DNA from: Lepraria neglecta
Lineage: Eukaryota > Ascomycota > Lecanoromycetes > Lecanorales > Stereocaulaceae
Direction: 5' to 3'
Assembly: GCA_033220425.1 (NCBI GenBank)
Contig: CM065650.1
Span: 4,650,001-4,714,000, forward strand
Length of the DNA: 64,000 nucleotides
This document shows positions 1 through 27,787 of the stretch, in pieces (position 1 is the first letter of the stretch; the number at the start of each line of letters is the position of its first letter). The position numbers and the translations under genes are program-made. Below the pieces are notes generated by a model that was given only the letters and a program-made list of their open reading frames with translations, searched no databases and was not told the DNA's origin.

Positions 1-98
1 ACTTCAGAAAAGCGCCTGTAATTGAAGCCTTTAGCCAAACACTGGATCTCTTCTAATATTGTTGGTGTAACGTTATAGAGACTTTCACGTGTGAGTCG

Positions 99-1548
99 CT
101 AAGAAGTCTTAGCGTCGAGCCTATATATATGTAATGAGAAATTTACCGATTGTGCCCAGTGTTCCTTCCCAGAGGCAAAGGACTCAATACTCCAATGGAT
201 CAGGCCAAGGTTCAATGCAATTAAGCCTTTCTCTCTGTTGAAAGTGATCTTATTTCGTGGTGTCGAATTGGCAAATTTGTCGGCCTCAGCGAATATTTGC
301 TTAAGGAGATAGCAAGCTTCGTGGCTGAGCTGGCGTAAGAACTCAAGCACAATGTAAGGCGCTGCAGCATGTCCCCATAATTTTGTATCCACCGTACACG
401 AAGCCGGAGCTCCAAGGAGCATCATGCAGGCGACGAAGCGGCGTGTAAAAGTCTACATTGCTCAGTGAAACTTCTCAAAGAGTATTCTAAACACAAGCCC
501 CTAAGGAGGCTCACGTACCTCAAGCGGCTCAAGAGGAACATGCGCCAGATCGAGTTGTGGCGCTGGGCTTGCTGTATTCAATGCCGCCTTTTGATTCGTG
601 GAGAAGACCATATCCAGCACTTTTTCAAGGCCGGTGGAGTCGTTTGCAAGTGGGAGGTTATCATCCAGACCCTTCAAGTCGACGTCAAATTTTCCCGATT
701 CATATCTCTCCCAAGTCTTTTTCACGTGTACAAGAAGGCTGAACACCGATTTGTCTTTCACAATTTCATCGAGTGAGATGCGCCGGAAATGTGGGAAGGC
801 CATTGCAGTCTTGTGCCAGGATACTATACACACAGTTAGGGACGGATACCATATAAAGCTATTCCTGACGGAACGTACGATTGTCAAGCAGTGCGGGAGC
901 TTGGATCGTGCCTCGACAGTACATATTCCTGTCATTGCAGTACTCGCAACGGTGATGATCGGGACCTGGATTACACTGCAGGAGACGTTAGCCTATAGCA
1001 CAGCCCATAGATTTTAGTGAACTCACTGGTCCTCGATTGTAGCAAGACATGCATCTTTGCCCACGATTGCTCGTAATTCGTTTCTCAGCTGGGGGCCCGC
1101 TATGATTGATGAAATTGTCGCGTAGAGGATTTTCTGCTGGTCTCTTGTGCGTAAAACCCCCATCAGCTGGTGCTGGAGTGGGAGGAGCGTGGGCGTCGAG
1201 GTGGTTGGTTCTGGTTGGTGGATTGGGCATCGCGTAAAGCTGTGGAAGAGCTGTGTTAGTACCGCAAGCTGGACAAGGAAGGGTCACCAGATTGTTTGAT
1301 ACCGAAGTATACGCAGTATAATCGTCGAGTATCTGGTCTGGGTTGCTAAAAGCCGGAGTAAGGGGGCCTTGGCCCTGGATTGGGTCGGCATGTTGAGGTG
1401 ATAGTCCAACGCCGCCGTTAATCGGTTGAGGTTGCGAATAAGACAGTGTCGTGGGTGGGAATGTACTGAGACATGATGAACAAAGATAGAAGTTGAGATT
1501 AGGTTGAAAATAGTTCGTGCAAGAGGCATTGAGGCATTGCCCCTCCAT
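99..1548 (-). CDS. Six-cysteine-cluster protein, copy A (unknown family)
   Basis: I do not recognise the family. A five-exon model gives 404 residues: exons 1548-1303, 1239-1027, 975-879, 823-519 and 452-99, all with GT-AG introns of 51-66 bases and frame kept throughout. The N-terminus has C5, C10, C23 and C26, spaced like an A20-type zinc finger. Residues 145-173 form C-X2-C-X5-C-X8-C-X2-C-X6-C, close to a fungal Zn2Cys6 cluster but with a five-residue first loop; intron 2 splits it just before the third cysteine, and the basic stretch EKRITSNRGQR precedes it. The C-terminal domain contains AAPYIVLEFLRQLSHEACYL and SFASGKEHWAQS. It is a clear paralogue of the plus-strand gene at 7892-9588, sharing all four intron positions and an exon 3 of exactly 97 bases. 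A zinc-binding nuclear regulator is plausible but inferred. Confidence 0.75.
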
Positions 1549-2507
1549 AACAGCATAGAGGGAGGGAGTGGTTCGAAGTGGACAGTATTAAAGAATGTGA
1601 ATGCTCGTATATAAGCAAGCGATGCTCGAAAGTGAATGACAGAGCCGCAGAATGTAATGAACGTGTTGCCAAAATAGCAAAAGGAGCGTGAGCAGTCAGT
1701 AGATAACAAGAGAATGGAGGAAAGGTGGGGGAGGGGTTTTTTTGTAGAAGAAGTGTGAGATTCGCGTCATCTCTCACAGAACAGTAATCATATAGGACAA
1801 TTACGGTAAAATAACGAGTACGAGGGCCTTCGAAATGTCTTTCGCCCAATAGTTGCACAACATATCTTTTATTGGACCCCAAAACGGTGTATCTCCGCAA
1901 ATTTACAGCCTGTAAGAATTACAAGACTGCCACCAATAGCCTGTTAAGGCGTCGCCAAGACTTATCATAATCCCTGCAACCGCCATCCCGCTCTGCGATC
2001 AACCGCAGTTCATATTAGCTCTAGGGGAATTTGCTCAAACAGTGTTAGTTTCGCCACATGCAGGCTTCTAGCCTATTTGGTTGCATCTGGTGGGGCTAGA
2101 CGATAGGAATCGCTGCTTTCGTTCCTTACTGGTGGCCAAAGACGATGGACTTGCCTGTGTGAACCACAATTCTTGTTGGCATGAGTGGAAGACAGATATC
2201 TAGGGGTCTGAAGCAGTCACTCACCCTGATAATACGCTTTGACAAGCCTAGAATTTCCTCAACGAGATCATTACTTTTCAGATTCGACTGAACAGGTAAT
2301 CCGCCTTCATTCGTAATGAGAGGACCTCTCATGTGTAAGGTTATGCATAAATATTCGAGGACGAGGAGTTACGCTCCCTTTCTCTTCTTCATGGTTCAAC
2401 ATACGGCAAACGTGAATTTATAACCACTTGTATTTGTTCAACGGACCCCACAAAACATTGGCCACTCCAGCAGTGTATCGTCAGGTTCTCGGCATATTAT
2501 CTTAATC
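1549..2507. other. Intergenic region, no supported gene
   Basis: This stretch is upstream of the minus-strand six-cysteine gene. It holds a 68-codon minus-strand frame (2126-2332) beginning MRGPLITNEGGLPVQSNL with a GTGAGT donor-like site inside, which may be a relic exon. I recognise no homology in it and see no RNA gene. Confidence 0.5.
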
Positions 2508-2840
2508 ATGGGAAGTATTAATGGTACATGTAAGAGCCAGCACCTAATATTCGTTCTCTTGCAGGAATCATTGCAACTGCTGATATATTGTCTTCATCTT
2601 CTAGTGGCTGGGCAAGGCCAGCCTGGCTCGCAAGCATCTGTGTCAACGGACATCACCCTTGTCGTCGTTTTCGGAATCCTTGGGCCTTTAGTTGCCATAC
2701 TCGTTGCTGTATGGACCGTATGGTATGACCATAGACGTCGGCAGGAACCTGATCAAGGTATGTTTCCATGCGACCAATTTCTATCTTCCTGTATCTCATG
2801 CAAACGAAGCTACCCAGGGAGGGACGCCGAACCAGTCTGA
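2508..2840 (+). CDS. Possible small single-pass membrane protein
   Basis: The frame encodes about 110 residues, or about 90 if a 60-base GTATGT...CCCAG intron near 2758-2817 is removed; that intron keeps the frame. One strong hydrophobic segment, around ITLVVVFGILGPLVAILVAV, is followed by a basic stop-transfer stretch YDHRRRQ, which suggests a type I or III topology. The start at ATG 2508 is the first in frame, but the N-terminal 35 residues may be intronic because a GTACATG...TTGCAG pair lies there. I recognise no family, and this may not be a gene. Confidence 0.3.
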   Translation: MGSINGTCKSQHLIFVLLQESLQLLIYCLHLLVAGQGQPGSQASVSTDITLVVVFGILGPLVAILVAVWTVWYDHRRRQEPDQGMFPCDQFLSSCISCKRSYPGRDAEPV

Positions 2841-3357
2841 AGAGATTGCAATGAGGGAGGATGTCTGAGGTCAAGGCTAGGGAGGATGGGCGCATGAGTG
2901 GGAGTGGAGGTGCCATCTGCGGGTGAACGATTTGTGGCTGCTTGCACGGTCTATAGTAAAACGGGATTAGCATCGCTTATATCATTAAAGGGTGAAGCGA
3001 AGTTATCATGCATCGTTTAGGAGATTATCAAGTAGCGTTGAATATCCTACTATCAAGAGGTTACGTTGGAAGAAGGGGAATAAGCGTTTTTAAGGGTTTC
3101 TTAAAATAGGCCGAGGGCCCATGCAGATAGCCCCCTCGGCCCTAGCCTTGGCCGTCCCAAATCTCTTACAATGAAAGATATATATCCGTAACTCTGTTTC
3201 AACGTTTTCAAACTCTTTTGGACTTACAGAAGCGTAGAATAGCAGTAGTAATATGATATAGCCAATGCACCTAGCCCAACGGTCGTCCATGGGCTGCTTT
3301 GCCCTTAGAACGTAGCTATATAAACTCATCTCCCACAATTTGACGAGTCACCGAGGC
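2841..3357. other. Intergenic region, no supported gene
   Basis: This is the flank between a doubtful small gene and the 3' end of the BRE4-like gene. An 82-codon minus frame at 3090-3338 has no recognisable domain and sits where the 3' untranslated region of the neighbouring gene would be. I see nothing else. Confidence 0.5.
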
Positions 3358-6300
3358 TCACATCCCCACCAATATATCACTTTCCCACCTAACCTCTCCA
3401 CAAACCTCTTTAGTATATTTCTGCAATTCCTGCAGGTTCTCCACAATGTCGGTCAAAGCGCCTGAATAAGCGTACTGATACACATCTGCCCATCTCCTCC
3501 CTTTCCGTTCTTCGGGACTCTTCCCTTCAGCCTCACGTTTCTGTGCTTGCTCGGCCTCGAGAATCGCCATCCGATCCAACAGCTTCCGCCTCGCAGCTGC
3601 AGCGCTGGGCAGATATCTCGGTACTGGTCTGTCGGCTCTCAAGGCGCAAGCGAGGACGTAAAGATTTAGGAGTATAACAGCCACGGCGTCCCGCCGCGGA
3701 GCCGTAAGAGAAGCGACAATTGCTGGGTCCGACGCAACCATGTATGGTTGGAAGTAGAGGGCCGATTGGCGGACTTGGACGAGGTGCTCGAAGAATGATT
3801 CACAAGCTGAGATCAAAGCGCTGTAAGGTAGGGGATCAAAGGGTGCTCTGAGGCGCATTTCATGCCGTGTAAGCTCCATGAGCTGGCGCATACGGACGAA
3901 GCCTTCTCGTAGTCGACCTTCAAGCATCTCTGATCTGGCAATATCCTCTGGGCCTGGTTCGTCGCCTTCAGAGTAGTAAACGTATTTAGCGATCACACCC
4001 CGGTAGAGGATTGCAGAGTGGAGCATCATAGCTGACAGTGACTTTCGGAGCTCGTGGCGTGCAATGAACGGCCAAAGCACCCAGTTGACGATGAGAGCTG
4101 CCACCACTCCCACAACAAAGGCGATGCCTCTTGTCCATGCTATTGTGACAATTGAAGGATGGCCGCCGCTTGTGTACGCGCTCAACGAGACGACAGTAAA
4201 GCTGATGCAGCCAACGACGCCTGACCGAGGATGCGAACTTTGCGTGAAGCGGTATAGCATGGGGATCATGTAGATGGCTGCAAAGACAGCCATGACATAT
4301 GGATTACCTACTCCGGCTGCATATGCAAAGCCACCCCAGACTGCGCCGATTGCAGCACAGGAGACCCGTGCTGCCAGATCTTGAAATGTGCCACCCACAC
4401 GAGGATGCATCATGCTCCAGACAGTGACCACTGCCCACCAGCTTTCATTGTTATTCCACCAGTCTCTGCTTTGTGGGAGCCAGGCAGGAATTGAAACAAG
4501 CGTGGTAACAAGCGCTACTTTGAATGCAAACCGTGACTCAAAACCTTGAAGACGATGAAGCAGCGTCCAGAGTCGGTATCGGAAATCGGCCTTTTCCGAT
4601 GTTTTCAAAGTCTTCCCCAAAGTTTCCTCCTGGTCTTGCTGGTACTCTCCGATCGCGGGAACCTGCTTAGATGGGTCATCGCCAGGGTGGCTTTGTCGTG
4701 CCGCGGGCACATAAACTACACTCTGAAGATCTGCCATGGTTCTATCCAGCTGTTTCTTGCCGCGGAAGTAAAACCCCGCTGTCAATCCTCCCCGATCATG
4801 TCGCACTTGGGCGTTGGTCCGCATGACAGCTTTAGTAAATGGATGAGATGGTGCTCTAATATGCCAGCGACTGTCGTCCTGTTGCATTTGCAAAATCTTC
4901 GAGGCGAATGCTTCGACCTTGTCAGTTGTCTGCCGTACTGGATGAACAAATAAGAAAAGTTCAATCACGTCTGGGCTCTTGGCGTAAGTAGATGACAGCT
5001 TTGGATTAGCTATCAGCAGAGCGTCAGCTGCATCGAAAGTTTCTCTTACTGATCGTATACGATTGACAGCCTTTGAAAGGCCTGGTGTTTCGGGCGATCG
5101 TTTTTGTCCTCCGATTTCCATGATCGTCAGGTCAGCGTGCTTTAGAACGTCGATCATAGAGTCAACCAATTCCCTTGTGGGCTCTCTGAGGCTACTGCAA
5201 ATCAATTGCATGGTGTGTTCACCCTCTGGGGCACTTCCAGGCCGCAAGCCCTCCACTAGGGTTTCTCCCCCTTCTGGAATGTCAAAGAGTATTGTGTCCG
5301 GTCTTATTGATAGGATAGATCGAATTACGCCTTGTAGCAGATTGCGTGTTTCTCGGATGTGATCTGGAGAGAATCGGGAGAAAGTGAAATCGATCGTGAA
5401 GTCTCTAACCGCTTGAGAAACATTGACAAATTGCAGCGCCAATTTGCGCTTCAGCGCCGGTGAGTCTTGGTGTGGCAAAGCAAGCCCAGATCTTACGGTC
5501 ACTAGCGCATCATGGAGGGAAAGTCTGTTGTTGAGGTAAGACGTAGTTGTAAGAGATGGGGACGAAAGTCTTACGAAATAGACCGTGAGCCAGCATCAGG
5601 AAAGACAATGAGAGCCACCACAAGACAGATGGCTTGACCTAGCACCCATGGTATGCCATAGTCGAAAACCTTGATCCAGCCGACGTTTTGGGAAGTGTTT
5701 GCAAGGCAGGTATAGAAGATAGCGAACCCAGCAGCGAGCACAGCTTGATAAAATCTGATGAGGACACATCGTAGCCAGCCAATGACTGCAGCGAAGATGA
5801 TAAGAAAGGCAGCCAATATGCCGCCATAGCCTGACTGAGCAGCGGGCGTAGAAGTTGAGACGTAGAGGGCTAGAGAGCCCCATCCTAGACCTGCTACAGT
5901 CCCAAGAGTGGTCATGAATGCTCCATCAACTTGTGAACCAATTGGTCTTCCAGGGTGGTTGATGATGGCCGAGATGACGATGATATAATTGTATCTCCCA
6001 AGCCAATTTCTTGAAGCTGGTATGAGACAAATGATGTATGTAATGGAGAAACCAAGGAAAGTTTTGAGAAGCTTGATGCCGGCCCTGGACGTGGTGATTC
6101 GGCGGAAGAAACCCTTAGCTTCACGAAACTGCTGGGGCAGGAAGCGCCCCAATGATAGTGGGTGGTTTTTGTGAAATGAATCCGGCAAGGTTCCCAATGC
6201 TTTCTGCATCAACTCATCGTAATCTCTTTCCAGTGGACGGAGGAACGAAGCATCGAAGAAGCCATCCCGTGCCTCTTCGACGCCATAGGTCTCGATATCA

Positions 6301-6617
6301 GAGTCTACCGCTTGGAGGAGAGGCTCGAGCTGTAAGTGGAAATTACTTGCCCTTGGGGATGGCGCAGCTATTAATCCGGTAGGGGTAGACGACCTAGAGT
6401 AAGAGCCCAGGTAAACATCTTGTGTTGCTACTGATTCTTGAGAGCTAGAAAGCTGGCCATGTTTCGGATTTCTTTGCCTTAGGAGAGAAAGCTTTCGAGT
6501 CGATGGTTTCTGCGTGCCATCTTTATCAGAGTTGGACACTCCAGCTGCCTCTATATCATCCCTAGGTCTGAAGGTCGGTATGTTGAATTGGATCCTCGGA
6601 AGCCCTTCTTCCGCCAT
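3358..6617 (-). CDS. BRE4-like multi-pass membrane protein (aromatic acid exporter / FUSC family)
   Basis: Two exons (6617-5575 and 5491-3358) give 1058 residues, within the roughly 1000-1100 usual for fungal BRE4-type proteins. The N-terminal third ends in a first hydrophobic block (FSITYIICLIPASRNWLG, then several helices to about residue 345). After a soluble region, a second block has the FUSC_2 signature WWAVVTVWSMMHPRVGGTFQ and helices through ALIVNWVLWPF, followed by the DUF2421-like C-terminal cytoplasmic domain with RMRQLMELTRHEMRLRAPFD. Members are related to plant aluminium-activated malate channels and bacterial aromatic-acid and fusaric-acid exporters; yeast BRE4 affects brefeldin A sensitivity. 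Substrate and membrane are unknown here. The second large frame has no ATG at its head, which supports the splice; the acceptor I chose (AAG at 5492) keeps frame but is not a strong one. It lies between the two inverted six-cysteine paralogues. Confidence 0.85.
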
Positions 6618-7891
6618 AACACGCTGGACCTATCATTCTTACACTAACTCTTTCATTGCCAAGAAGAGTCTACCCTTTTGCATATAGACTGAGCGTCAAA
6701 GCGCTTTGGGCATTTTGCTCTTCCTGGGAGCGATCGCGGGTTCGGCAAGGGATCGGGCCGATAATACATACGCTAAGGTATTACGATAATGCCCCTCATC
6801 CTTGGCGGAAAAACGTTTCCCGCTGTACCGAATCCCTATATCTAGCTAATGAGATATTAGAACACTTACACCACTCCTCGCGTTACCTACCTACCTTACT
6901 CGCCCTTGTCTTGCCTTCCAACCCTAGCTCAAATGTGCGTCGTCGACCTACAAGTTCCCACCGCGGTTGCTGTTCCACTGAAGAGGGCGAAGTATCCGGG
7001 ATACAATACCAGGGTTGATACTGGGACCGAGTGCTGCAGCGGTCCCGTCGCTCCGGATATCGAGATTACTGGAGACAGCAAGATGTGCGATGAATTATGG
7101 AGAATACATGGGATGAACATGATAAGAGCATACAAGTGTTAGTGAAGAGAATGATACGCGTGGAATCATAGTCAATGTTAGCCTCCTGTGATTGTTGAAG
7201 CCTGCCAACGCGAAGGAGGTGAGGCCGGGTACGACTCTCCGGATGTAGGTGAGATGTGCTGGAAGGCCGTACGTGGTCAATGCGATAACTTTTCAATGTG
7301 AACCTCGTTGTATGTCAAGGATTATCGAAAAACATGATGCTCATCGTCCGACTTTGATCTGTATTTACATTCATCATGAACTTAGTGAATCATCGAGATA
7401 GCATAATCTGCATTGAGTCTGAATTGTGAACGAGCGTTGCATCAAAAATCTAGAGCGCTATCGAATTGGACCCTCCTTTCCAATAAGCTTAGTGGCTCTG
7501 ACTAACACCAGGAATGACCAGGAAAAGAATGTTCCAAAGCCATAGGAACCAAGATATTGCCTAAACCGGTTAGATTATGCAAGCGAAAACTGCCGATCAT
7601 TAGGCGGTCGGAAAATAAAGATCACGAGTCGCGGCTCAAACAGCTCTCCGAGCTGTCTTCACCACGTCCTCTTCTCTTCTTGTACTCACTTCTCCTTTGA
7701 TTCCGCAACCCAGTCATTACCTATAGATTAATATTTGTGTTTGAACCATTCTTGTACACGATCATCCGCACTCACCAAGTCTTCACATGTACTCATCGCT
7801 CTTTCCACCCCACCCCACCCCACCTCTCTTGCCTTTCGACTCCTAGACTTCCCATGACACCTGCGCGCGGATCTGCTCCATCTTTGCACCA
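6618..7891. other. Intergenic region between BRE4-like gene and six-cysteine copy B
   Basis: This holds the promoters of two divergent genes. A 78-codon plus frame at 6906-7142 has paired cysteines (TECC, KMC, YKC) and a KR site and could be a small cysteine-rich peptide, but it lacks a convincing signal sequence. From about 7800 the strand becomes very pyrimidine-rich (CCCCACCCCACC), typical of fungal sequence just before a start codon. Confidence 0.5.
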
Positions 7892-9588
7892 ATGAACGGC
7901 AATGGCAATGGTACCGGTCAATGCCCTCCTCGTCGACAACATCAACAGACTGCACACTGCCAGTATCAGTGTACATCATGCTGGAACCTTCTCTCGGCCT
8001 CACCTGCACCTTATCCACCAAATCTCCTCAACCCTTACGCCATACCCGACGCCTCTCAAGCACCTACGACCTATCAGACGTCTCAACTTATCAATACCGA
8101 GGGTGGAATCACGCAAGCTGCACAGAATGATTACAGTCTGGCTCATCCTAGCAATTTTGACGCCTCTGAGACGCAGAACAACTTCGCGCACTTCTCCAAT
8201 GCTCCCAGTCAAGACAACTCGCTTGACTTTGGTAGCCTAGACAATCACGCAGCATCACAGGACCAACTCAATAGTCTTGACCTTCATGACTTTACCGATT
8301 TCGGACATTCTCAAAGTTACAATCAGGGTTTCAGCTCCGCCGGCACAGAACCTCAGTTCTCCTCAGTAAGTGATTTCTGTCAATTATCAAACAATCATTG
8401 TTCAAGGGTTTTAACTAAAAAGACTACTTGCTGCAGGCTTGGCCCAATTTGCCCCCACACACGTCCATTCCAGAACAACAAAATGGCTACACGAGTCGAC
8501 TGCCTACGCAAACCTCTTCTGAGCTACACAATCATGACATGCGAATGGAGGCACCACCCGAGGAGGACTTCATCCGTTATGAAGGGCCAGAAGCTGAGAA
8601 AAGGGCCAAGAGCAATCGAGGTCGAGCATGCATAGTATGTTACGGCCAAAAACACGTGAGTGGAACACCTTAGTACGATGGACTATATTTTGACAATTCA
8701 TGTAGTGCGATATGAGGCCTGGGCAGGTTCGCTGCGAATTTTGTAAGCTCAACAACAGATACTGTCAGGGTGCTATGCAAGCTCCACCCTTGTTAGACAA
8801 GAGTAGGTTTCAATCACGCGATAATACTTCCTGGACTACGCTAACAGCGCCTAGGATCATGGCACAAGGCGGCACTTGCTTCTCTAGAGTTGCATTGTAC
8901 ACCTCTCGATTCTGTTGTCGACAAAGCAGCGAACTATGGCCTAGTGGTCGATGCCCACCGTCCTGGACCACAACACCAATCACAAAATTATGACATTGAC
9001 CTTCGGTACCTTTATGAACAAACGCCTTCGCATGATCCTCTTCCACAGCTAGAAAAAGTTGTTGACATGGTTCTTAGCGCAGCTCGAAACACGGATTCAG
9101 ACTCTACAGGTTCTGAGGCATCGGCGAGATTATGTCCGGAACCTCTTAAGGTATCATGAGTTGTTTGCCTGCCACCCCGCTCTTCTCATTTTATGCTCAG
9201 TCCTGACGTTTTTATATCCTAGACTTTAACACAGCGTCTCCTTGCATGCCTAACGCTCCTTAGCACTCCCAAAATATGCACAGTGGATGCCACCTTGAAG
9301 CATCACGTTGCGGCTCCCTACATTATGCTTGAGTTCTTGCATGGACTAGGTTACGAAGCATGCTATTTGTTAGGTCGAATCTACGCAGAGTTGGTCACTT
9401 TTGCAGATCCCGCCAAACCACGAAAGAAAACGGCGCCAAAGTCCAGCAAAGCAAAGAACGAAAAGACCTACTTGAAAGAGAAGAAAGCAATCGCGTACTA
9501 TCTTGGTCTTATCCGCTCCAATTTTGAGTCTTTCGCATCCGGAAAAGAGAACTGGTCGGGATCGGTAGAGCCTCCTCTCGCCTCTTAA
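7892..9588 (+). CDS. Six-cysteine-cluster protein, copy B (unknown family)
   Basis: A five-exon model (7892-8365, 8437-8655, 8706-8802, 8855-9150, 9223-9588) gives 483 residues. All splices are GT-AG and frame holds. Residues 223-251 repeat the exact spacing of copy A, C-X2-C-X5-C-X8-C-X2-C-X6-C, again split by an intron before the third cysteine and preceded by AEKRAKSNRGRA. Downstream matches to copy A include SWHKAALA, YDIDLRYLYEQ, LEKVVDMVLSAARN, CTVDATLKHHVAAPY and FASGKENW. The N-terminus (residues 1-160) is rich in Q, N, S and P, and its cysteines (11, 23, 27, 30) do not keep the A20-like spacing of copy A. A lysine-rich insert (KTAPKSSKAKNEK) lies in the C-terminal domain. Sequence divergence is substantial, so the duplication is not recent. 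A role in nucleic-acid or protein binding through zinc is inferred. Confidence 0.8.
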
Positions 9589-9762
9589 CGAAAAGAAGCT
9601 AACATAATTAGCAATTTGTTCCCGGGGGCCTTTACGAATCGGCCCCAGCAGTGATTAGGCACCTTGAGTGGCTGGCTAAAAGTTTCCATCAGAAGCGCTT
9701 TCTGGAAGGGTGCAAAAATTCGGCTTTTGAACCAATCGGTATCCATATAAGCCTTTCGTCAG

Positions 9763-11025
9763 ATGTTGACTGGGGTCAGACTAGTGGATCAGGCGTAGGA
9801 GACAGGCAAGATAGCCCCTAAGCGCAGTTGATTTTTGGATGCTAACTAAGTCTACTTGTGTTGTAGCTATCAGACATTCTCCTTCGTTGACATCGCCGGC
9901 TATAACGAGCCACTAATGAAGCAGCATGTAGCCCAGGAGCATGTGGGCTCAGGCTCAGGAATGGCAGCACTCCCATCCCAGCAGCACATCGATGCGGTCC
10001 TCGTCGAACGTGAGCGCTCAAGTGGCTATCAGTACTATAGTCCTCGACACGGTAAGGCTCCGCTGGTCCAATCACCCCCTAAGATTCCAAGTGCGGAATA
10101 CCCGGCTTTAAAAGATCAGAATAAAAGGCAGGGAAGGCCTCGTGAATTGGCACTTCACATGGACATCGATCAAGTGACTCCAGCCGATACCTTGTCACGC
10201 CAACAAGACGAGTCAAGGAACCATGTCGAAGAATTGAACAAATTGAAAGCAGAGCTCCAGCAAGAAGTCTCCGTAATTCACCAACATCAGGTCAGAAAAG
10301 CCGAGCTTCAGGAAAGGATGGAAAGGATAAACCGTTGGCAGCTTGGCCTGGGACCCAACGGCGGCGATCCGCTCGAGATACCATTATTCCTAGCAAGGGA
10401 AGGAGTGCAAGAACCAACCTCGCCCATGTCCGGTACCACACAACACCACGGGGATCAGGTCTCCTTGGTCCCATGCAGGTCTGGTAATACAACTGTAGTC
10501 GGGCATAATGACAGCCCAGGCCCTGACGAATCTATGGACTTGCCAACTCGGAATCCAAGTCCACAGATCTCGACTGCTGCTGGCAAGCCGGACGAGATTA
10601 CAAGCTGGCATCAGAAGTCCCGAAAACATTCTTTGTCTAAACGCTCGAGTATCCATCTCGATACCGCTAATCCACCAAAACGAAAGCGATACGGCTACAT
10701 CTCAGCCAAAAGGGCTTCCGCTGCCCCAATTCTACATCAAGATCACGTCGTTGAGGATGCCGGCAAAGATGCCGCCGCCACGTTCGAGCAGGCGGAACTG
10801 ACTCCCGTTAACACCACTTCTACTTTAGACAGGAGCAGGCTATCCCAAGTGCTTCACGGCTCCTACGGGAAGAAGGTGACCTGTGACGAGATCAACTCAG
10901 GCTTCGTGGTAACCAACTCGAACAGGCCAACCTCCTACCCTCTAGCAAGGCGCTGGCGCCGATCAATAGGGTTGTCGATAAAATCGTTGACTACAAAGCT
11001 CGAGGACATGAAAATTGGCTTATGA
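9763..11025 (+). CDS. Unknown coiled-coil protein with basic nuclear-type motif
   Basis: The long second exon (9867-11025) encodes almost all of the protein. A 32-base first exon at 9763-9794 joins in frame through a GT...TTGTAG intron with a GCTAACT branch site, giving 396 residues; the alternative is an internal ATG at 9919. The middle has a heptad-like charged stretch (SRNHVEELNKLKAELQQEVS to MERINRWQ) likely to form a coiled coil, and PPKRKRYGY could be a nuclear localisation signal. The rest is low-complexity, rich in S, P, Q and H. I recognise no domain. It starts 175 bases after six-cysteine copy B on the same strand; a run-on exon of that gene is conceivable but the stop at 9586-9588 argues against it. 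Confidence 0.55.
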
Positions 11026-11610
11026 CTCATTTTTGGCCCTCGCAGTCTTTTCGATGTTGCTACATTCTTCATATGGGTTTTTGGTGCAAGGTTTGGTGTT
11101 TTACTTTTCTAGATCGGGCGTTTTAAAAGCATTCTGCTTGTCGATGGGAGGCTTTCAACATGCCACAAGCGTCGGAGTGAAGGCGCAGCTACTTAATAGT
11201 TAATGAAGGAAAGATGCCATGGATGATGGCATTACAGGCTGTATGATATTTCGAGTTGTTCTACTGTTCATAGCGCGGCGCATGTATCATAGAATTTTGG
11301 CGTTTTGATTTGGCAACGAGCGGATACTGGACAATTCCCGCCAAATGTTGACGATATAAGATTACAATGATGAGACTCTACACTTTCTGCAACATTCATG
11401 CATGTCATCTGTGTGTAATAACAGGGTTCATCGCCAGTTTTGGCACTTTTCCACAAGTCTAAGCGCAGTGTGGCCCACAAGAGGTTCAATGACAGGTTAT
11501 TATGTAGTATGTACAGCTATATTCTCCAGTGTGCACATCGACAAAAGCTCCGGGCTTTTGGTGAACCTCCGAGCAATCAGCATCTATTACATTATCATTA
11601 CTTCAATCTC
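11026..11610. other. Intergenic region between convergent genes
   Basis: This is the 3' flank of both the coiled-coil gene and the rhodopsin-domain gene. Only short chance frames are present, none with recognisable protein features. Confidence 0.5.
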
Positions 11611-13127
11611 TCAGTAAACCTCATGCTTGTAGGGAATCCAGTCACTACTCGTAACAACTACCTCATCCTTCACCCTAATACTCCCAGCAGGCACATTCAT
11701 CTCCGCCAGACTGATATCCGATCCAGCTACCACACCTGTCTTGCCTCCGTGCACAGTAACATCGTGACCCCATTGGTCTCTAGTCTCCGTTGGTTCATCA
11801 AGGCGACTGAATTGGTCGGCATCGCTTCTACTTCGCCAAGTCCGTGACGATCCGCTGCTGGCATCCTGTGCGCTACTCTTCCCTCCTATCTTGGTCCCTC
11901 CAATGGCGCGTGTTGTGCCGTGGAATAGTATTGAGACGAGCGGACGGAGACTAGGGATGCAGGCGCTGATTACTCCCATGCATGGTTCCGCGGCAGACCA
12001 AATTGCTGAGTTGACATAATTCCATGTCAGGTCGTACGCATCGAGTCGGGAAAGTACGACGAGTCGAATAATACTAATGATGCAGACGCTACAGCTTGCT
12101 GTCAGAAAAGGCACTTGTGGAAGAGTGGATGATGTTTGAACTTACAATCCAGCGCAGACGAAGATACCTGTCAAGACTCCCTTCTGCGAGGCTGTGGTTC
12201 GCAAGCGCCAGAGCAGAGGAAGCGGCTTTGATGTGTTAGCGTTTGGGATTCATAATCGATGTGAGTAACATACGAGGAGGATGATAAAGAAGTCTATAAC
12301 GCAATTAAAAGCTCCTGGAACAATCTGGACCAAATCACCATTAGACCAATGGCCAGGTTGTGTAAGATCCCAGAAGCGGTGTATTGGTGAGCTTCGAGCA
12401 GAGTCAGCTTGCTGGTCTACCAACGAAGAGGGAAGCCTTACCATTGGAAGATTGCGGCAAGAATCGAGCTAACGAAGTAAGCTGATACTACGCCGATAGC
12501 AATGTAGAGCAGAAGCTTCAGCTGTTGGACGGGAAATATTCGACGATAGAACGCGAGACTGGACCGTGATCAAGTTAGCGATTTCGATTATTGCCTTTAG
12601 GACTAATCACTTACATCGCAATCTTGACGGCGGCCGTCGAGGAATAGTAGCCGATTTCGTATACGTATAAAATCTTGACGAACTCTCTCGTGTTGTCGGC
12701 GGGGTCCTTGAGAATGTATATGTGTCTGCCGAAGCCATTATGTCGTTCCGCTGGGGAATTGTCAGCTCGGTGCACCAGCGCATACGGTTGCTGAACCACT
12801 GACAGACTAGGACGCATATGCATTGAACATAGCATAGAACCTGGAGATTCTCAATTAGCGAGACGCCACTTATGCTTTCATAAACATTAACTAACACAAG
12901 CAATTGTGACCCAGAGATCATCGTACTTTTTCAAGGTCAGTAGAGCTCCCTCTCGTTAGCGTTGTAGAGGAGATCCTCACCCAGTAACCAGCGTGCGAGA
13001 CTCTTCTTGATATCAAGCGTGCAATAACGAATAGTGTAGGAAGCACGATGAGAGCTATCATAGACGCAACCAGTCGCCCTCCTTGATCAGCATACAAATC
13101 TATCCCTGGAGGCGGTGTGTCGGCCAT
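11611..13127 (-). CDS. Fungal rhodopsin-domain (PTH11-like) seven-helix membrane protein
   Basis: Start is ATG 13127 (MADTPPPGIDLYAD). A chain of short exons gives family landmarks in order: helix 1 ASMIALIVLPTLFVIARL, then YDDLWVTIA, NGFGRHIYILKD, RRIFPVQQLKLLLYIAIG, a PIHRFWDLTQPGHW loop, FNCVIDFFIILL, and VLSRLDAYDLTWNYVNSAIW with EPCMGVISACIPSLRPL. These are hallmarks of the fungal rhodopsin domain (PF20684), whose members include PTH11-type G-protein-coupled receptors used in surface sensing by plant-associated fungi. There is no CFEM domain at the N-terminus, so it belongs to the shorter class. The C-terminal tail of about 110 residues is cytoplasmic, serine-rich and lacks further helices. 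Exon 1 is 13127-12981; six or more introns follow, and the exon near 12780-12830 has an uncertain boundary. Ligand is unknown. Confidence 0.8.
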
Positions 13128-14531: not shown

Positions 14532-15280
14532 TCATGGCGGCCCATTACCAACCGCTTCTCTGTAAGACCTTCTTTTCACGACGACTGGTTCCTCCTTTAG
14601 AGGAAGTTTAAAATCTTGTATTCCACACACAGCGTCTGGGAATGCTTTGAAGTGGATGTTCATCTCATTGGTACGGATCCCCAAAGTCGTCGCGGTCTTC
14701 TGAAGGATCGGTCCATAGATGCCAATGAGCAATTCCTTCACTGCTTGTGCATGTTTGTGGTGTGCGTAGGTCTACGATTCCAGTTCTCCAGATCGTCCAC
14801 AAGTTTCAGCTTTCTGAGACTCAATGTCCCTGTTCTCTCTTTCGCCCGCAAGATCGAGCCCATAAGATTGTCTAGGTTCTGTCCGCATACCGAGCGATGT
14901 AGACACTGCTTGGTGGGAATCGGATATTTCAGAAACATGTAGAAGTCCCAATCTAGCTAGCCCTTTGGATGGATAAAGTCCGGCTGTAGGAGCTGTATCA
15001 TGTCGAAGTGCCGTTTAAGCATGAGGGGTTCTCGCCGAGATCTTCCCCTGCAATTAAGCATCCGCATATGTCTATCAATGCTGACCGAGAAGGTGTTCCT
15101 GCTGTAATAATAGTGTAATACCTCGTGGTGGAGCTGGCGACATGCGTAGAAGAGCGGTGTTCCGGAGCAGTGCGGGCTTTGAGATGTAATGTCGATGGGA
15201 GATTCACTGAGGTAGAGGTACGAGTAAATGTGACATCTCAACTCTGCCGGTAGCAACAGTATTGTAGACTGGCCAGGCAT
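14532..15280 (-). pseudogene. Broken LPAELR-type fungal protein, copy 1
   Basis: From ATG 15280 the frame reads MPGQSTILLLPAELRCHIYS, the start typical of small fungal 2EXR/DUF7730-like proteins, and continues with CSGTPLFYACRQLHHEVLHY and YYSRNTFSVSID to a TAG stop after about 107 residues, near 14960. Homology to the neighbouring copy goes on past this stop (KQCLHRSVCGQNLDNL, LRKLKLVDDLENW), then changes frame near 14770 and resumes with KELLIGIYGPILQKTATTLG. So this copy has at least one stop and one frameshift. The N-terminal fragment alone could still be made. Function of the family is unknown; some members are F-box-like. Confidence 0.7.
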
Positions 15281-15688
15281 TTTTCGCAGTGTGATTGGTC
15301 GGGTGTGATAGTGTTTCTGTACTAGAACGGAGTTCGTTGGTGGAAGGTGGTAGAGAGTTCTGTATAGTTTGTTCGTTGAGAAAGGGAAATAAGACTTACC
15401 ACTGAGTGGCGACTTTTTGGCCCACTTGGAACTGACTTGCTCAAATTTGAGCGCAATAGCCCTCAAGATGATGCATTCCACTTTTGATCATCCATAAGTT
15501 CGACAAATCAACGAGAAGGTTTAAGGGCCCAGGCAAAAGCTTTCGATCTAGTCTGGGAGTTAAAAATGGCGTTCAAAAAGTACCACTTGAATATGCTCGT
15601 GTCCCTGTTCCAATTTTCTACAAGTGCATAGAGCCCTCCTCTGATAGTCTTCCTGCTCGCTTCCACAAAGGATCCTTTCCTTAGGACT

Positions 15689-16365
15689 TTAGTTCTTGTT
15701 CGCCTGCATATAGGAGATTTTAACCAAACGCTCAGCTTCGGGAAAGAACTTGAAATTGATCATTATCTCCTTGACACAGATCCCGAGAGTCGCGGCAGCC
15801 TCCTCAAGGATTGGGCTGTAAACAGCGATAAGCATCTCTCGCGTGGACGTATGTTGATGTCGGAATACTTTGTACGGTGTCCTCCACGCACATAGGCAAT
15901 AATTCACAACGGTCAGCTTTCTTACCAACGGTCCGACTTGTTTTTTCAGGTGCGTCATAGCCTCTATGAACCTTTCTAGCTGTTCTCTACAAAGATTGAT
16001 GTGATCCTGGTAGTTATGAAGCCAAAAAAGAGGTCGGGTGCTGGGCGAGGGTCTTTGAATTATGTGGGTCACATGCAGCTCTAGCTTTTCCACTACGTTG
16101 AAGTGCCTTGTAAGCATGTAAGACTCCATATCGAATCCTAGCATTCGATTGCATGGCTGTATATCACGATCGATGAGAGCAGAAAAAGTGTTGCTGCTGT
16201 AGTAGTAGTGCAGCGTTTCGTAGCAGAGCTAGCGGCAGGTGAGGAAGAGAGGCGTTTGGGAGCAGTGCCAATCTAAAGTATGGGAAATCGATGGTAGAAT
16301 CAGGGTACTCGTAAATGTAGGAGTATATTTGACGCCTCAACCCGGCCGACAGCTACAGTAGAGGA
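15689..16365 (-). pseudogene. Broken LPAELR-type fungal protein, copy 2
   Basis: This is a tandem relative of copy 1. The downstream part is open (16144-15689) and includes YMLTRHFNVVEKLELHVTHI, LVRKLTVVNYCLCAWR and STREMLIAVYSPILEEAAAT, aligning with the matching parts of copy 1. The upstream part reads SAGLRRQIYSYIYEYPDSTI, then needs a frame change, and continues with HCSQTPLFLTCR followed by an in-frame TAG where copy 1 has a glutamine codon (CAG), a C-to-T change, then LCYETLHYYYSSNTF. No good start codon is left. The two copies have independent defects, so they decayed after duplicating. Confidence 0.7.
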
Positions 16366-22607: not shown

Positions 22608-25600
22608 ATGACGGCTCAATTGCTCACCTCGGAGCTATCAACTCTGGTCCAAGAGTCGAAGAGAAAGAATCCAGATCTGAGAGCCGCTGCCGAAAAATCT
22701 TTGAATGACTTGAAAAGCCTTCCACGGACATCTGAAGCTCAAATCGCAGCAGGTCTGTGTCTATCATGCCAGATATGGAGCAATGGCTGACCTTGAAAGA
22801 GATTTGAAAAGTCGATCAGGCTTCGTAAAGCCGTTCCTGCTCGCCTGTGGTACACGAAATCCTAAATTCGCCGGAAGCGGGATCGTTGGTCTCCAGCGAT
22901 TAGTCGTCTCCAATGCCTTGCCGAAAGAGACCTTGACGGAGGTCCTGGAGGCTTTCCGAGAATGCTCGACTTTAGCCCTTGACATTCAGCTCAAGGTGCT
23001 ACAGGCACTTCCATCACTTCTTCAGAACTACGCAGCTAGCTTGACTGGGAAGTTGCTAGTAAACGCGTTCCAAGTATGTTTTCTGTTGTATAGCAGTAAG
23101 ACAGTTGTAGTCTCGAACACCGCTGCAGCAGCCCTACAGCAGCTTGTCAATTCTATCTTCGAAAAGGCTACATTGGACGACGAGGGCCAGTCGACAGATG
23201 TGCCTGCTGTGGAGGTTCCGATTGGCGATGGAACCGTATCGATATATGGCGCTGCCCTGGACGCACATCATGTGCTGGATGACATTTGCCTCCTAACAGA
23301 TGGACAGAAACCAGGGTTTTTAGTCACAGCTTCTCTTGCGCAGAATTTTGGTCTCGAGCTAATAGAGTCTATATTGGCAAATCATGCCGATACTGTCATG
23401 GCCCATCCAGAGCAAATCCATGTATTACGCCAGCGCTTGATGCCATTGATCATCAAGATCTTATCAGAACGGGCAAGCTTCTCCACCACAGTCCGCACAA
23501 TGCGGCTTCTGCAAATGGTGCTAAGCCGTCTACTCTTTGCACTTGCCGAGGAATGCGAAATGGCTTTGAGCCTGCTAAATCATATGCTTGACGCGGACGC
23601 TGCAACTTTATGGAAGCGAGCGTTGAGTCTGGAGGTATTTCGGAATATACATTCCGAGTCTGCACTTGTCAGAAGTATATACGCCCATTATGACCAAGCA
23701 GACGAGAAGAGGAATATTGTGAGGGATCACTTAGGCAGCCTTGTACGCCTAGCATCTGAGAAGCCGGCAGTTATCGGTCTTGGCCAACAATCCTCGATAC
23801 CATCATCCGTGGGACCGGATGACACTTCTGGAGAGCAAGCCGCCGTTCAAGCAGGGGGCCTTGTCGGGAGCATTGGAGCGTCCGTCACCATGACAGATAC
23901 CAACAGGTCTGGCATAAGTACTCAGTGGAGCATGATCAGAACACCATGCATCGAGCAGCTTGACAAGTCAGAGCCTCCGAACCTGCCAGCAACGTACGTC
24001 TACAGCCTTGCTCTAACTTGCATCACAAGATTCTCTGAAGGTCTCGCGCGCTTTCTTCTTCCATTTACAGTACCAGTTGAGACCAAATCAAAGCGAAAGC
24101 AGTCTATCATAAAGGAGACTGATGGCCGAGATAATATCGATGGTTCTACGGGAAAGACGCTTCAGAGACACCAGCCTTTCGGCGGCCGAAGACCGCCCGT
24201 CAATCCTCTCAGTCTCAAAGAACATGTACTCTACGGTCAGATAACGACTTCCGGTCATATGGTAGACCATTGCTGGCCAGCACTGCTCGCAGCATCCTCT
24301 ACATACCTCAATGCAACTTTGGACTCCGAAAATTACCATGCTTTGATCCGATCCTTCCAGAAGTTCACCCAAATCGCTGGCCTCCTTGACCTGGCAACTC
24401 CTCGAGATGCGTTTCTTACGACGCTTGGGAAACACGCAGTACCAGCAATGAACAGCAGCTCAATAACCCGTTACACCAACGGGCGAGATTCTGGACTTCG
24501 TGAAGAGTTTACCGACAGCGATCGTGAATCAAGCCCAGTCACAAGCATTCGTGGACAATCCACAGATTTGGCAATGCCAACGATGAATACTAGACACCTT
24601 CTCTGCTTACGAGCTCTGCTCAATTTGGGTATTGCCTTGGGACCAGTCTTGAAGAAGTCCTGGACAATCATCCTGGAAACTCTTCTCCAGGCAGACCTGA
24701 TTCTATCCGTCTCTGGACCGGCAGGCCGGAAGCAGATCAAACGTTCAACAAGTAAAGCGGAGAGCGATGCTGCAGCGGAAAGGGCAGACGGCGCCGAAGA
24801 TCTCGGCCTGGAGGTTACCGCTGCTGAGACTGCTGCGTCAAGACTTTTCGAAAGCACCGCGGACTTGCCAAGCGATGCCTTTCTCGACTTTGTGAAATGC
24901 CTCTGCTTACTGCTACACGTTGAGATGCCCATGCAAGAATTGAGAGACGGATTGCTATCACCAAAACCAGCAGCAAAAAGGCATCAAAAAGTGAGAAGTG
25001 TGTCTGGTGTTCCTATGGAAGGAGGTGCTCTTGGCCAAAGTAATGGATTTGTAGTTGACAAATTGGACGACATAATCCATAGCAACGTTGCACGAATGCA
25101 GCGACCAGAGACGTCAGAAACTGGGTGGAGTTACCTTCTAGAGGTACTCACTGGCGTTCTCAGCTCGAACAAGGCACAACCAGAGGTTCGTATCAAAGCG
25201 GCTAATACACTTAATGGCTTAATAGCTTCAGTCGCCGTCTCGGATGAGTCGTTATTGCCAAAGGAACGTGATACTGTTTGGGATCGAAGCTTGTATGCTC
25301 TACAAAATCAAGTTTCGGCGCTGTATGAGTTCCGGTCACAGGGTACAACGTCTTCGCGGAGTTGTGAAATTGAGATTCATCGAATGGCCCTAGAAGCTCT
25401 GAAATCAATACTCGAGCATTGTGGAGATTCTTTGGATACTGGATGGAAGAGCGTTCTTGCCATGATCAAGAGTGTCTTTGATGAGTCGACATCAACAGGT
25501 GTTCAAAGCGACGATATGCCCTCTCCTCGTAGCAACTTACCACAGCTCGTTAGATCTGCTTTCGGGTCGTTGCAACTCATTTGCTCGGATTTCCTCGCCT

Positions 25601-27787
25601 CCGTCCCGTCTTCCCATCTTTTACCCCTTTTAGACACGCTGTATTACTACTGCGCCCAAAACCTAGACTTGAACATCTCTCTCACGGTAAGTTATCCCAA
25701 AGCCAAGTTGCTCCCATTTAGATACTCATGGTACCCGACAGACAGCAACTCTCTTCCGAAACGCCTCGGACTTCCTGCAACGTAATGGCGAGAGCATCGA
25801 TTTTGAGTTCCTCGAATCGCAACACCCATCGAATATGGATCTGACAAGATGGGCACCGGCGGAAGATATCAAGAAATCGACGATGGCGATGTGGTTATAT
25901 CTCCTGCATCGGTTGATGCTATTGTCAATGGACCGCAGGCTAGAAGTACGGCACAGTAAGTGTATTGGCGTTCAGCTAAAAGAAATTGGCTAATATCTTG
26001 ATCATTTAGGTGCTTTACATACGCTGTTCAGGATCTTTGATGCATCTAGTGATCAACTCACAGTTTCAGCCTTGCAAGTCTGCTTCAATACCGTTCTCAT
26101 CAAAATACTCGAGGCCAATGCAAAGCAACATCTTGCATCAGAGGGCCCAGAAGCATCGGGTACTAAAGAAGACGCAACACAAGGTTGGAATGAAACAGCA
26201 ATAGTTGAGGTTGAGGGCATAGCAAATCTGTTCTCGCAATGGCTTGATACACACAAGGGAAACAGAGTTGTCATAGCAATGTGCGAAGATCTGTTTGAGC
26301 GCTACACGCTGTTCTTGAAACGGCATGTCCTAAATGTCAGCAATACTGTCTTTACTGGTGTGACCAAAATACTTGCGGAGGTTGAGAATTCCGAAAGTGC
26401 CGACAAGTCCCTTCTTCTCAACAAGGCGTGGGGATTGTGGAAGGATGCTAATCCAGCTTCTCACGCCGACAATTCGAAGAGAAGGACTGGCAACCAGGAC
26501 GCGCTGACCGCTTATCTGCACTGCCTTCGTGAGTTACTGCGCCTATTTTCCCAGGAGCTTCGATTTGAGCAAACACAAACGATACTGAAACAATTGCGCG
26601 TATGCGTTGTCGAGTCTACTGCTACGGCGTATAGCGTGGATGTTGACCGTATGACGCCTGTCCAGGGGATGGTATTGGAAGGGATAAAATCGATCCCTAG
26701 CAATATCCCAGAGATCATACCAGAGCTTGTTCAATCTATCAATGGGCTGGCCACCTTAGCTTATGAGCAAGAAAGCGATCCCTTGGGTAAAAAGCAGACA
26801 TACATAGCTCTCTCAAAAGCTGCGATGAGCCTGCTTGATTCGTGCATCATCAGCCATATTAGAAGCCCCGGCCTCGATCTCATAGGGATAGTCTCTGAGG
26901 CAGTTAATGCCCTGGCAATACCGATACACCTCAAGTACAACTGGAAGCCAGAAGGCAAGGATCCTTCGCCATGGTCGAAGGCTACAACGACGGCGCTGTC
27001 GATTCTGGAAGCCTGTATGCCGGCCATACAAGCTTCTCATTATGCCAAACAAGATAATCCGCAACTTTGGGAGAGTATTGTCAGGATAAGCGATGGGATT
27101 GTTGCAGCTAACTATGATGCGTGCACTAATTTGGCGGACATACCCAAAGATCAAGAATCTAACATCGAATTCTTTTCAAGGATACGAAAGCTCGTCATTC
27201 CTACCCTTGGGTCGCCCTCGATTCCGGACACAGTAAGACGGAAGTACGCAGAATCCATATTTAAGAACTCCATCATCCATGAACCGCACCCAGATGATCT
27301 CGCCAGACCTGGCCAAGAGCTTCTAGAAGGCCTTCGAAGCACTCACATCGGCCGCGTCAACGATCTCCCGCCATCTCCTCGATCAAAAATGTGCTATCTA
27401 CTTCTCGATGAGCTCTTCAGCCTTGTCGCCGTCCATGACGGCTCACCCGAGCGAATACGACTCGCACAAGCAGCTGCTCCTTACCTCATCCTTCGTGCAG
27501 GTCTCACACTGAAGGCGTACGTCATGGATCATCCGCTACGTGGGCGCATGCCTCAGCCATGGTCACAGAAGAAAGAGATGCTGTATATTTTACGCAAGCT
27601 GATAGAGTTGGACTCTGAGCCGAAAGCTATTCCTGCGGCGCCGGGGATCACGTCGGAGCATAAGAAGCATTTGCATAGGCTTTATCCGCTAGTTCTGAGG
27701 GCTTTGAAGGCTGCTTGGAGGGATGAGGAGATGATGAGTGCGTTGCAAGAGGTTCTTGATGCTGTGGGTGATGATTTCGGTATCTAA
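22608..27787 (+). CDS. MON2: Mon2, large ARF-GEF-related scaffold of Golgi and endosomes
   Basis: Four exons (22608-22752, 22802-25686, 25742-25955, 26010-27787) give 1673 residues, close to the about 1640 of yeast Mon2. The protein resembles large ARF exchange factors but lacks a Sec7 domain; it acts in Golgi-endosome traffic together with Dop1 and Neo1. Family landmarks: the N-terminal DCB-like region MTAQLLTSELSTLVQES, FLLACGTRNPKFAGSGIVGL and LEAFRECSTLALDIQLKVLQ, then LALTCITRFSEGLARFLLP in the HUS-like part, and ATLFRNASDFLQ and DRRLEVRHSALHTLFRIFDA further on, ending in LEVLDAVG-like QEVLDAVGDDFGI. The first exon is short; its acceptor (GAG at 22799-22801) is unusual but keeps the conserved frame. 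I see no stop or frameshift. Confidence 0.93.

Follow-up and report, generated by a model that had tools for sequence, protein, structure and literature searches.

Two diverging paralogues with seven predicted exons

The window analyzed here, a 64,000-nucleotide stretch of Lepraria neglecta DNA (C5:4650001-4714000, within a searched genome of 42,023,604 bases on 11 contigs), contains two paralogous genes, A on the minus strand and B on the plus strand, that diverge from each other, one on each side of a gene for a BRE4/ArAE-like transporter. An earlier note on this DNA had described such an inverted pair, and the orientation, the paralogy and the Pfam domains of the middle gene bear the description out. 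The gene ends placed at 99 and 9588 had to be abandoned, as had the products of 404 and 483 residues: exons 6 and 7 follow in both genes, and the predicted proteins of 845 amino acids (aa) for A and 926 aa for B are about twice as long. A and B are almost certainly inverted paralogues with the longer models given below, in which lengths are in nucleotides (nt) and all splice sites, like those of a third gene, C, are predictions.

1303..1548, minus strand: gene A exon 1, start ATG at 1548
1027..1239, minus strand: gene A exon 2, ends directly before Cys 3 of the six-cysteine domain
879..975, minus strand: gene A exon 3, 97 nt, carries Cys 3-6 of the domain
519..823, minus strand: gene A exon 4
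147..452, minus strand: gene A exon 5
99..146, minus strand: gene A intron 5, contains the stop first read as the gene end
1..98, minus strand: gene A exon 6, in-window part, continuing past the window edge to C5:4649917
C5:4649860-4648675, minus strand: gene A exon 7, outside the window
7892..8365, plus strand: gene B exon 1
8437..8655, plus strand: gene B exon 2, ends directly before Cys 3 of the six-cysteine domain
8706..8802, plus strand: gene B exon 3, 97 nt, carries Cys 3-6 of the domain
8855..9150, plus strand: gene B exon 4
9223..9564, plus strand: gene B exon 5
9565..9611, plus strand: gene B intron 5, contains the TAA (9586-9588) first read as the gene end
9612..9805, plus strand: gene B exon 6, to 9794 if intron 6 is GT-AG
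9867..11025, plus strand: gene B exon 7, includes the stop; from 9874 in the alternative; KRKR motif and C-terminal SYPLARRWRRS

Beyond the ends first read, open frames with long motifs in common run at window positions 9850-11025 (plus strand) and at C5:4648675-4649922 (minus strand). A genome search with exons 6 and 7 of B matched exon 7 of A at an expectation value (E) of 3.8e-39, with 39% over 271 positions. The donors of intron 5, an intron of 47-48 nt, follow KENWSGS in B and KEHWAQS in A, at an identical codon and phase, and in gene A the final three bases of this intron (146-99) are the TAG at 101-99. The first-read ends are wrong because both stops sit within intron 5 and the exons downstream of them are homologous. 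Shared motifs had been thought to reach the first-read C termini; the two tails, VEPPLAS and VNFSLHIYRLDAKTS, do not resemble each other, and the homology is found in exons 6 and 7 instead. By ending at codons within short introns, the by-eye models cut both proteins to about half their length and concealed that the pair is homologous at the C terminus.

Gene B thus spans 7892-11025, and gene A ends near C5:4648675, beyond the window. For intron 6 of B to have the phase seen in A and C, its donor must be GC; a GT-AG intron at 9795-9873 would likewise preserve the frame. In gene A, the donor of intron 1 (1302-1240), GTATCA, is weak, and the intron may be retained, in which case the frame stays open and the short model has 425 instead of 404 aa. 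A TACTAAC-type branch site 20 nt from the intron end, together with the agreement with B and C, favors its removal. Over the 18 introns modeled in A, B and C, 16 are 47-72 nt long, 17 start with GT and one with GC, and the last 25 nt of 13 introns contain a CTRAY branch-like site, a count made with no control for the chance rate. Adjoining gene B is a frame with a fungal rhodopsin domain (11611-12141, minus strand; PF20684, E 2.4e-13).

A third member and the age of the pair

Gene C was found by a search with protein A, which matched two stretches of one gene at C1:2557607-2558446 (E 7.9e-4 and 2.6e-3). It was modeled at C1:2559074-2556260 and encodes 786 aa. The models of A, B and C are alike in having seven exons, intron phases 0,0,1,0,0,2 and a 97-nt exon 3, an agreement that is partly built in, since the splice sites of each gene were picked with the others in view. 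The exon lengths, without the stop, are as follows.

Gene A: 246/213/97/305/306/182/1186
Gene B: 474/219/97/296/342/194/1156
Gene C: 225/219/97/299/303/152/1063

The common plan reported earlier for A and B therefore stands in its 97-nt exon 3 and in the matching phases (0,0,1,0) of introns 1-4, and fails in its count of five exons.

Single-protein searches of the genome with the short models of B and A, the whole of C, and exons 6 and 7 of B, run to an E of 10, identified no further member of the family; the counts are lower bounds. Three additional candidates, at C1:2682651, C3:5293112 and C1:4729614, were weak (E 0.16-0.43), had a stop inside each match and were dismissed as chance. A large, scattered family, which the earlier note had named as the finding that would undo its proposal, was not encountered: gene C is the one member found beyond A and B, again as a lower bound. 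Among prokaryote and viral contigs, no relative was confirmed (21 and 13 pattern matches, respectively), and nothing on this gene family was found in the open-access PubMed Central (PMC) literature.

Over 813 aligned codons of the full models, in an alignment that takes in weakly aligned tails, A and B are identical at a fraction of 0.37, with a proportion of synonymous differences (pS) of 0.75, which is saturated, and a proportion of nonsynonymous differences (pN) of 0.42. By exon, A and B are most alike in exon 5 (0.54) and exon 3 (0.48). Identity between A and C is 0.22, and between B and C 0.23. The duplication is old because A and B are only 37% identical and synonymous change is saturated. 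No long inverted repeat was found at the DNA level in window positions 1-11100, where the longest of eight arm pairs is 28 nt at 82%. The large divergence proposed for the pair is hence confirmed in protein, synonymous sites and DNA alike, and the idea of an old and maintained arrangement holds for the genes themselves, pN lying well under the saturated pS. These values support purifying selection on the proteins of A and B and an old, undated duplication. A and B form a genuine inverted pair, duplicated locally long ago, and belong to a small, unclassified and probably nuclear family.

The six-cysteine domain and a possible role in the nucleus

Each of the three proteins contains a six-cysteine domain, in which Cys 2 and Cys 3 are five residues apart in A and B and six apart in C.

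Domain A: C-MS-C-YNRGP-C-x8-C-EY-C-x6-C
Domain B: C-IV-C-YGQKH-C-x8-C-EF-C-x6-C
Domain C: C-IA-C-FNKKRP-C-x8-C-TY-C-x6-C

An intron lies directly before the third cysteine in all three genes. The six-cysteine pattern appeared in none of 20,000 residue shuffles for each of A, B and C; 36 alignment columns hold a cysteine, and of the seven that hold it in all three proteins, six are those of the motif. Zn(II)2Cys6 binuclear cluster regulators (PF00172) are of the Gal4 type, and at least 68 Zn_clus matches in the genome exceed the cut-off; this number and the short introns make a filamentous ascomycete likely. Gene C fits the spacing C-x2-C-x6-C-x5-16-C-x2-C-x6-8-C, with which Zn(II)2C6 proteins were searched for according to the abstract of PMC2447501.

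KRKR occurs once per protein, in the last fifth of each (at 812/926 in B, 724/845 in A and 650/786 in C); a motif of this kind can direct proteins to the nucleus. A and B also have in common SYPLARRWRRS near the end and a stretch that looks coiled-coil-like by eye. Near their N termini, A (1548-1471, minus strand) and B (7892-7981, plus strand) each carry four cysteines, arranged C-x4-C-x12-C-x2-C and C-x11-C-x3-C-x2-C, respectively, that are lacking in C and are perhaps a second zinc site.

That these genes were "unrecognised" proved accurate. No Pfam match over the cut-off was obtained for whole A, B or C, NCBIfam (mostly prokaryote models, searched with the short models of A and B) gave no match, and the PDB sequences gave none for the three proteins save a single row, 2m85, whose E of 0.38 is at chance level. 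A TAF match in A (E 0.09 and 0.19) was below the cut-off and was likewise dropped as chance.

Read from sequence, the orientation and paralogy of the pair, the third member, the six invariant cysteines of the motif, the shared predicted structure and the constraint on the proteins are evident. The likeliest interpretation, which we favor modestly, is that A, B and C are nuclear regulators. An old local inverted duplication gave rise to A and B, which are members of a small family outside the profile libraries used. The six cysteines would coordinate two zinc ions in a compact domain with the layout of a Zn(II)2Cys6 cluster. Nuclear entry and contact with DNA or chromatin would depend on KRKR and on the basic residues that precede the domain, exons 4-6 would encode a helical regulatory or dimerizing part, and the protein would act as a transcription regulator. 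The regulator idea of the earlier note is thereby strengthened by the cysteine spacing and the single KRKR of each protein and weakened by the failure of the domain in the Zn2Cys6 profile tests.

Those tests head a series of results that weigh against the nuclear-regulator interpretation. Neither whole A, B and C nor their isolated domains gave a Zn_clus (PF00172) match at E up to 10. With x5 in place of x6, A and B do not fit the motif in the abstract of PMC2447501 under any model that keeps the domain, and in A a single basic residue lies between Cys 2 and Cys 3. A profile of the genome's own Zn clusters (26 of 30 fetched loci were usable; four had no full motif in one frame and were dropped) scored A at 2.8, B at 4.4 and C at 2.2 bits, and cysteine-preserving decoys scored as high in 251, 170 and 393 of 500 cases, respectively; all 26 true clusters passed, at 35.6-52.3 bits, with none of 200 decoys as high. 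An earlier profile from seven of eight fetched loci gave 105 (A), 143 (B) and 278 (C) such decoys of 500. In hhalign, the comparison with true clusters reached a probability (Prob) of 7 (E 0.0048, single comparison), a value within the 0.6-69 spanned by 30 column-shuffled controls and far below the 98.8-99.2 of ten true triples. The KRKR of C occupies a different alignment column from that of A and B, and the structure predicted for exon 5 (that of B, with that of A as the one other row) is helical and poor, with a mean predicted local distance difference test (pLDDT) score of 54.7. The link of C to the family is also the weakest of the three: C as the query retrieved A weakly (E 0.006 and 0.13) with B not listed, and neither B query (the short model; exons 6-7) found C at E up to 10.

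Given decoy-level scores for all three proteins and the lack of a Pfam match, membership in the Zn(II)2Cys6 class could not be shown by profile. The domain may work like a Zn2Cys6 cluster; its kinship to the class is not supported beyond the cysteines. It is a modest surprise that the domain has cluster-like spacing and yet no detectable relationship to this genome's own clusters.

Two other accounts of the domain have to be considered. A, B and C could be true, strongly diverged Zn(II)2Cys6 regulators that act as dimers on CGG-type sites, A and B having lost one residue between Cys 2 and Cys 3. Gene C retains the x2, x6, x8, x2, x6 spacing, hhalign places all six cysteines in register, the class is abundant in this genome, and insertion of one X lifts the B domain to 14.6 bits (E 0.036) with Zn_clus. 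That score is still under the cut-off of 21, the identical insertion in A yields no match, decoys score as high as the X-bearing domains in 91 (B) and 351 (A) of 500 cases with the own-genome profile, and the unaltered domains remain at the decoy level where every usable true domain passes. True divergence is therefore a serious contender that falls somewhat short of an even chance, and it would be one possible origin of nuclear regulators, not their opposite. Alternatively, the stretch could be some other zinc domain that binds protein or RNA, with a convergent cysteine spacing and no role in transcription. The absence of similarity to Zn clusters past the cysteines and the domain's own conserved features near Cys 4-6, R-C-x-[YF]-C-x3-N-x-Y-C-x-G, speak for such a domain. 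Against it stand the regulator-like spacing in each half, the basic residues ahead of Cys 1, the single KRKR per protein and the lack of a match to any other domain family; we consider this alternative unlikely. If the domain is a zinc cluster whose loop has changed, proteins of this kind escape profile-based counts of fungal regulators, and the family illustrates the extent of change open to the Zn2Cys6 layout; if the domain arose independently, it would be a new small zinc domain.

The transporter gene and comparison with known systems

The features between A and B are the following.

3358..6617, minus strand: FUSC/ArAE/BRE4-like membrane protein gene, 1069 aa, one intron (5574-5525)
2424..2840, plus strand: short open frame that separates A from the BRE4-like gene and includes a hydrophobic stretch; without a Pfam match
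6618..7891, no strand: divergent region of B and the BRE4-like gene, 1,274 base pairs between the two start codons

The BRE4-like protein exceeds the Pfam cut-offs for FUSC_2 (47.5 bits; cut-off, 25.6), ArAE_2_N (27.5; 23.5) and ALMT. For the BRE4 domain itself (PF10334; cut-off, 25.7), hmmscan gave 23.4 and 22.5 bits, the latter with the whole protein, and the genome search gave 26.7. The BRE4 profile marks three places in the genome, two of them, on C2 and at this locus, over the cut-off and one, on C8, below it.

As a further and weaker step of the mechanism, B, and perhaps A, would control the BRE4-like transporter via the shared divergent region. Such local control is plausible from the gene arrangement, if improbable on balance. 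Counting against it, C1, the contig of gene C, has no BRE4 profile match, and a promoter scan for CGG/CCG pairs and shared short words upstream of B and the BRE4-like gene, A and C, run with no shuffle control, gave no convincing common site; of the 21 occurrences of CCGGAT or its complement in the window, three fall in the shared region. Single-protein searches, which set lower bounds, found no member of the A/B/C family near the BRE4-like places on C2 and C8. Because of this and the lack of a BRE4 match on C1, a fixed regulator-transporter unit is mildly disfavored.

The same observations, along with the lack of a clear common promoter site, suit an ordinary local duplication in which the position of the BRE4-like gene between the two copies is fortuitous and the copies do not regulate it. 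That the arrangement outlasted divergence to synonymous saturation, and that B and the transporter gene have a divergent region in common, are points on the other side, neither of them strong. A chance neighborhood is rather probable, and it is compatible with A, B and C being nuclear regulators. The combined proposal, in which the three proteins have a separate fungal six-cysteine zinc domain (its Zn2Cys6-like layout independent, or diverged past recognition, with two zinc sites and an altered loop) and A and B are a maintained pair controlling an efflux-type transporter, is quite improbable.

Elsewhere in the window, a Mon2/Sec7/BIG1-like gene is present at 22714-25782 (plus strand). The names BRE4 and BIG1-like Sec7 both recall brefeldin A traffic; the two genes probably share the window by chance. 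At 14957-16352 (minus strand), two adjoining, related-looking frames, LLLPAELRCHIYSYLYLSESPID and LSAGLRRQIYSYIYEYPDSTIDF, appear to be a tandem copy with interrupted frames; LLLPAELRCHIYSYLYLSESPID comes near DUF7730 (E 4e-6; 26.7 against a cut-off of 27) and matches Ank_4 (24.1 against 22.7), and LSAGLRRQIYSYIYEYPDSTIDF has no Pfam match.

Compared with known systems, A, B and C resemble Zn(II)2Cys6 regulators in having six cysteines in two halves, C-x2-C-x(5 or 6)-C, with basic residues before Cys 1, and in being large proteins with a putative nuclear motif. They differ in the x5 of A and B, in the lack of profile similarity past the cysteines, in a domain that begins 139-223 residues into the protein, in the intron directly before Cys 3 and, for A and B, in a conserved C-terminal tail of their own. 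The middle gene is like FUSC, ArAE_2 and BRE4-type proteins (PF13515, PF10337 and PF10334) in its FUSC_2, ALMT and ArAE_2_N domains, and unlike BRE4-type proteins in a BRE4 domain that straddles the cut-off (22.5 bits for the whole protein and 26.7 in the genome search, against 25.7). In the hxn cluster of Aspergillus nidulans, as described in PMC5746545, a regulator gene is clustered with the genes it controls, a layout that A, B and the BRE4-like gene may share; HxnR is, unlike A and B, a Cys2/His2 regulator. The reference list of PMC5746545 also names a precedent for a divergent region such as that of B and the BRE4-like gene, the niiA-niaD region, in which NirA sites act in both directions.

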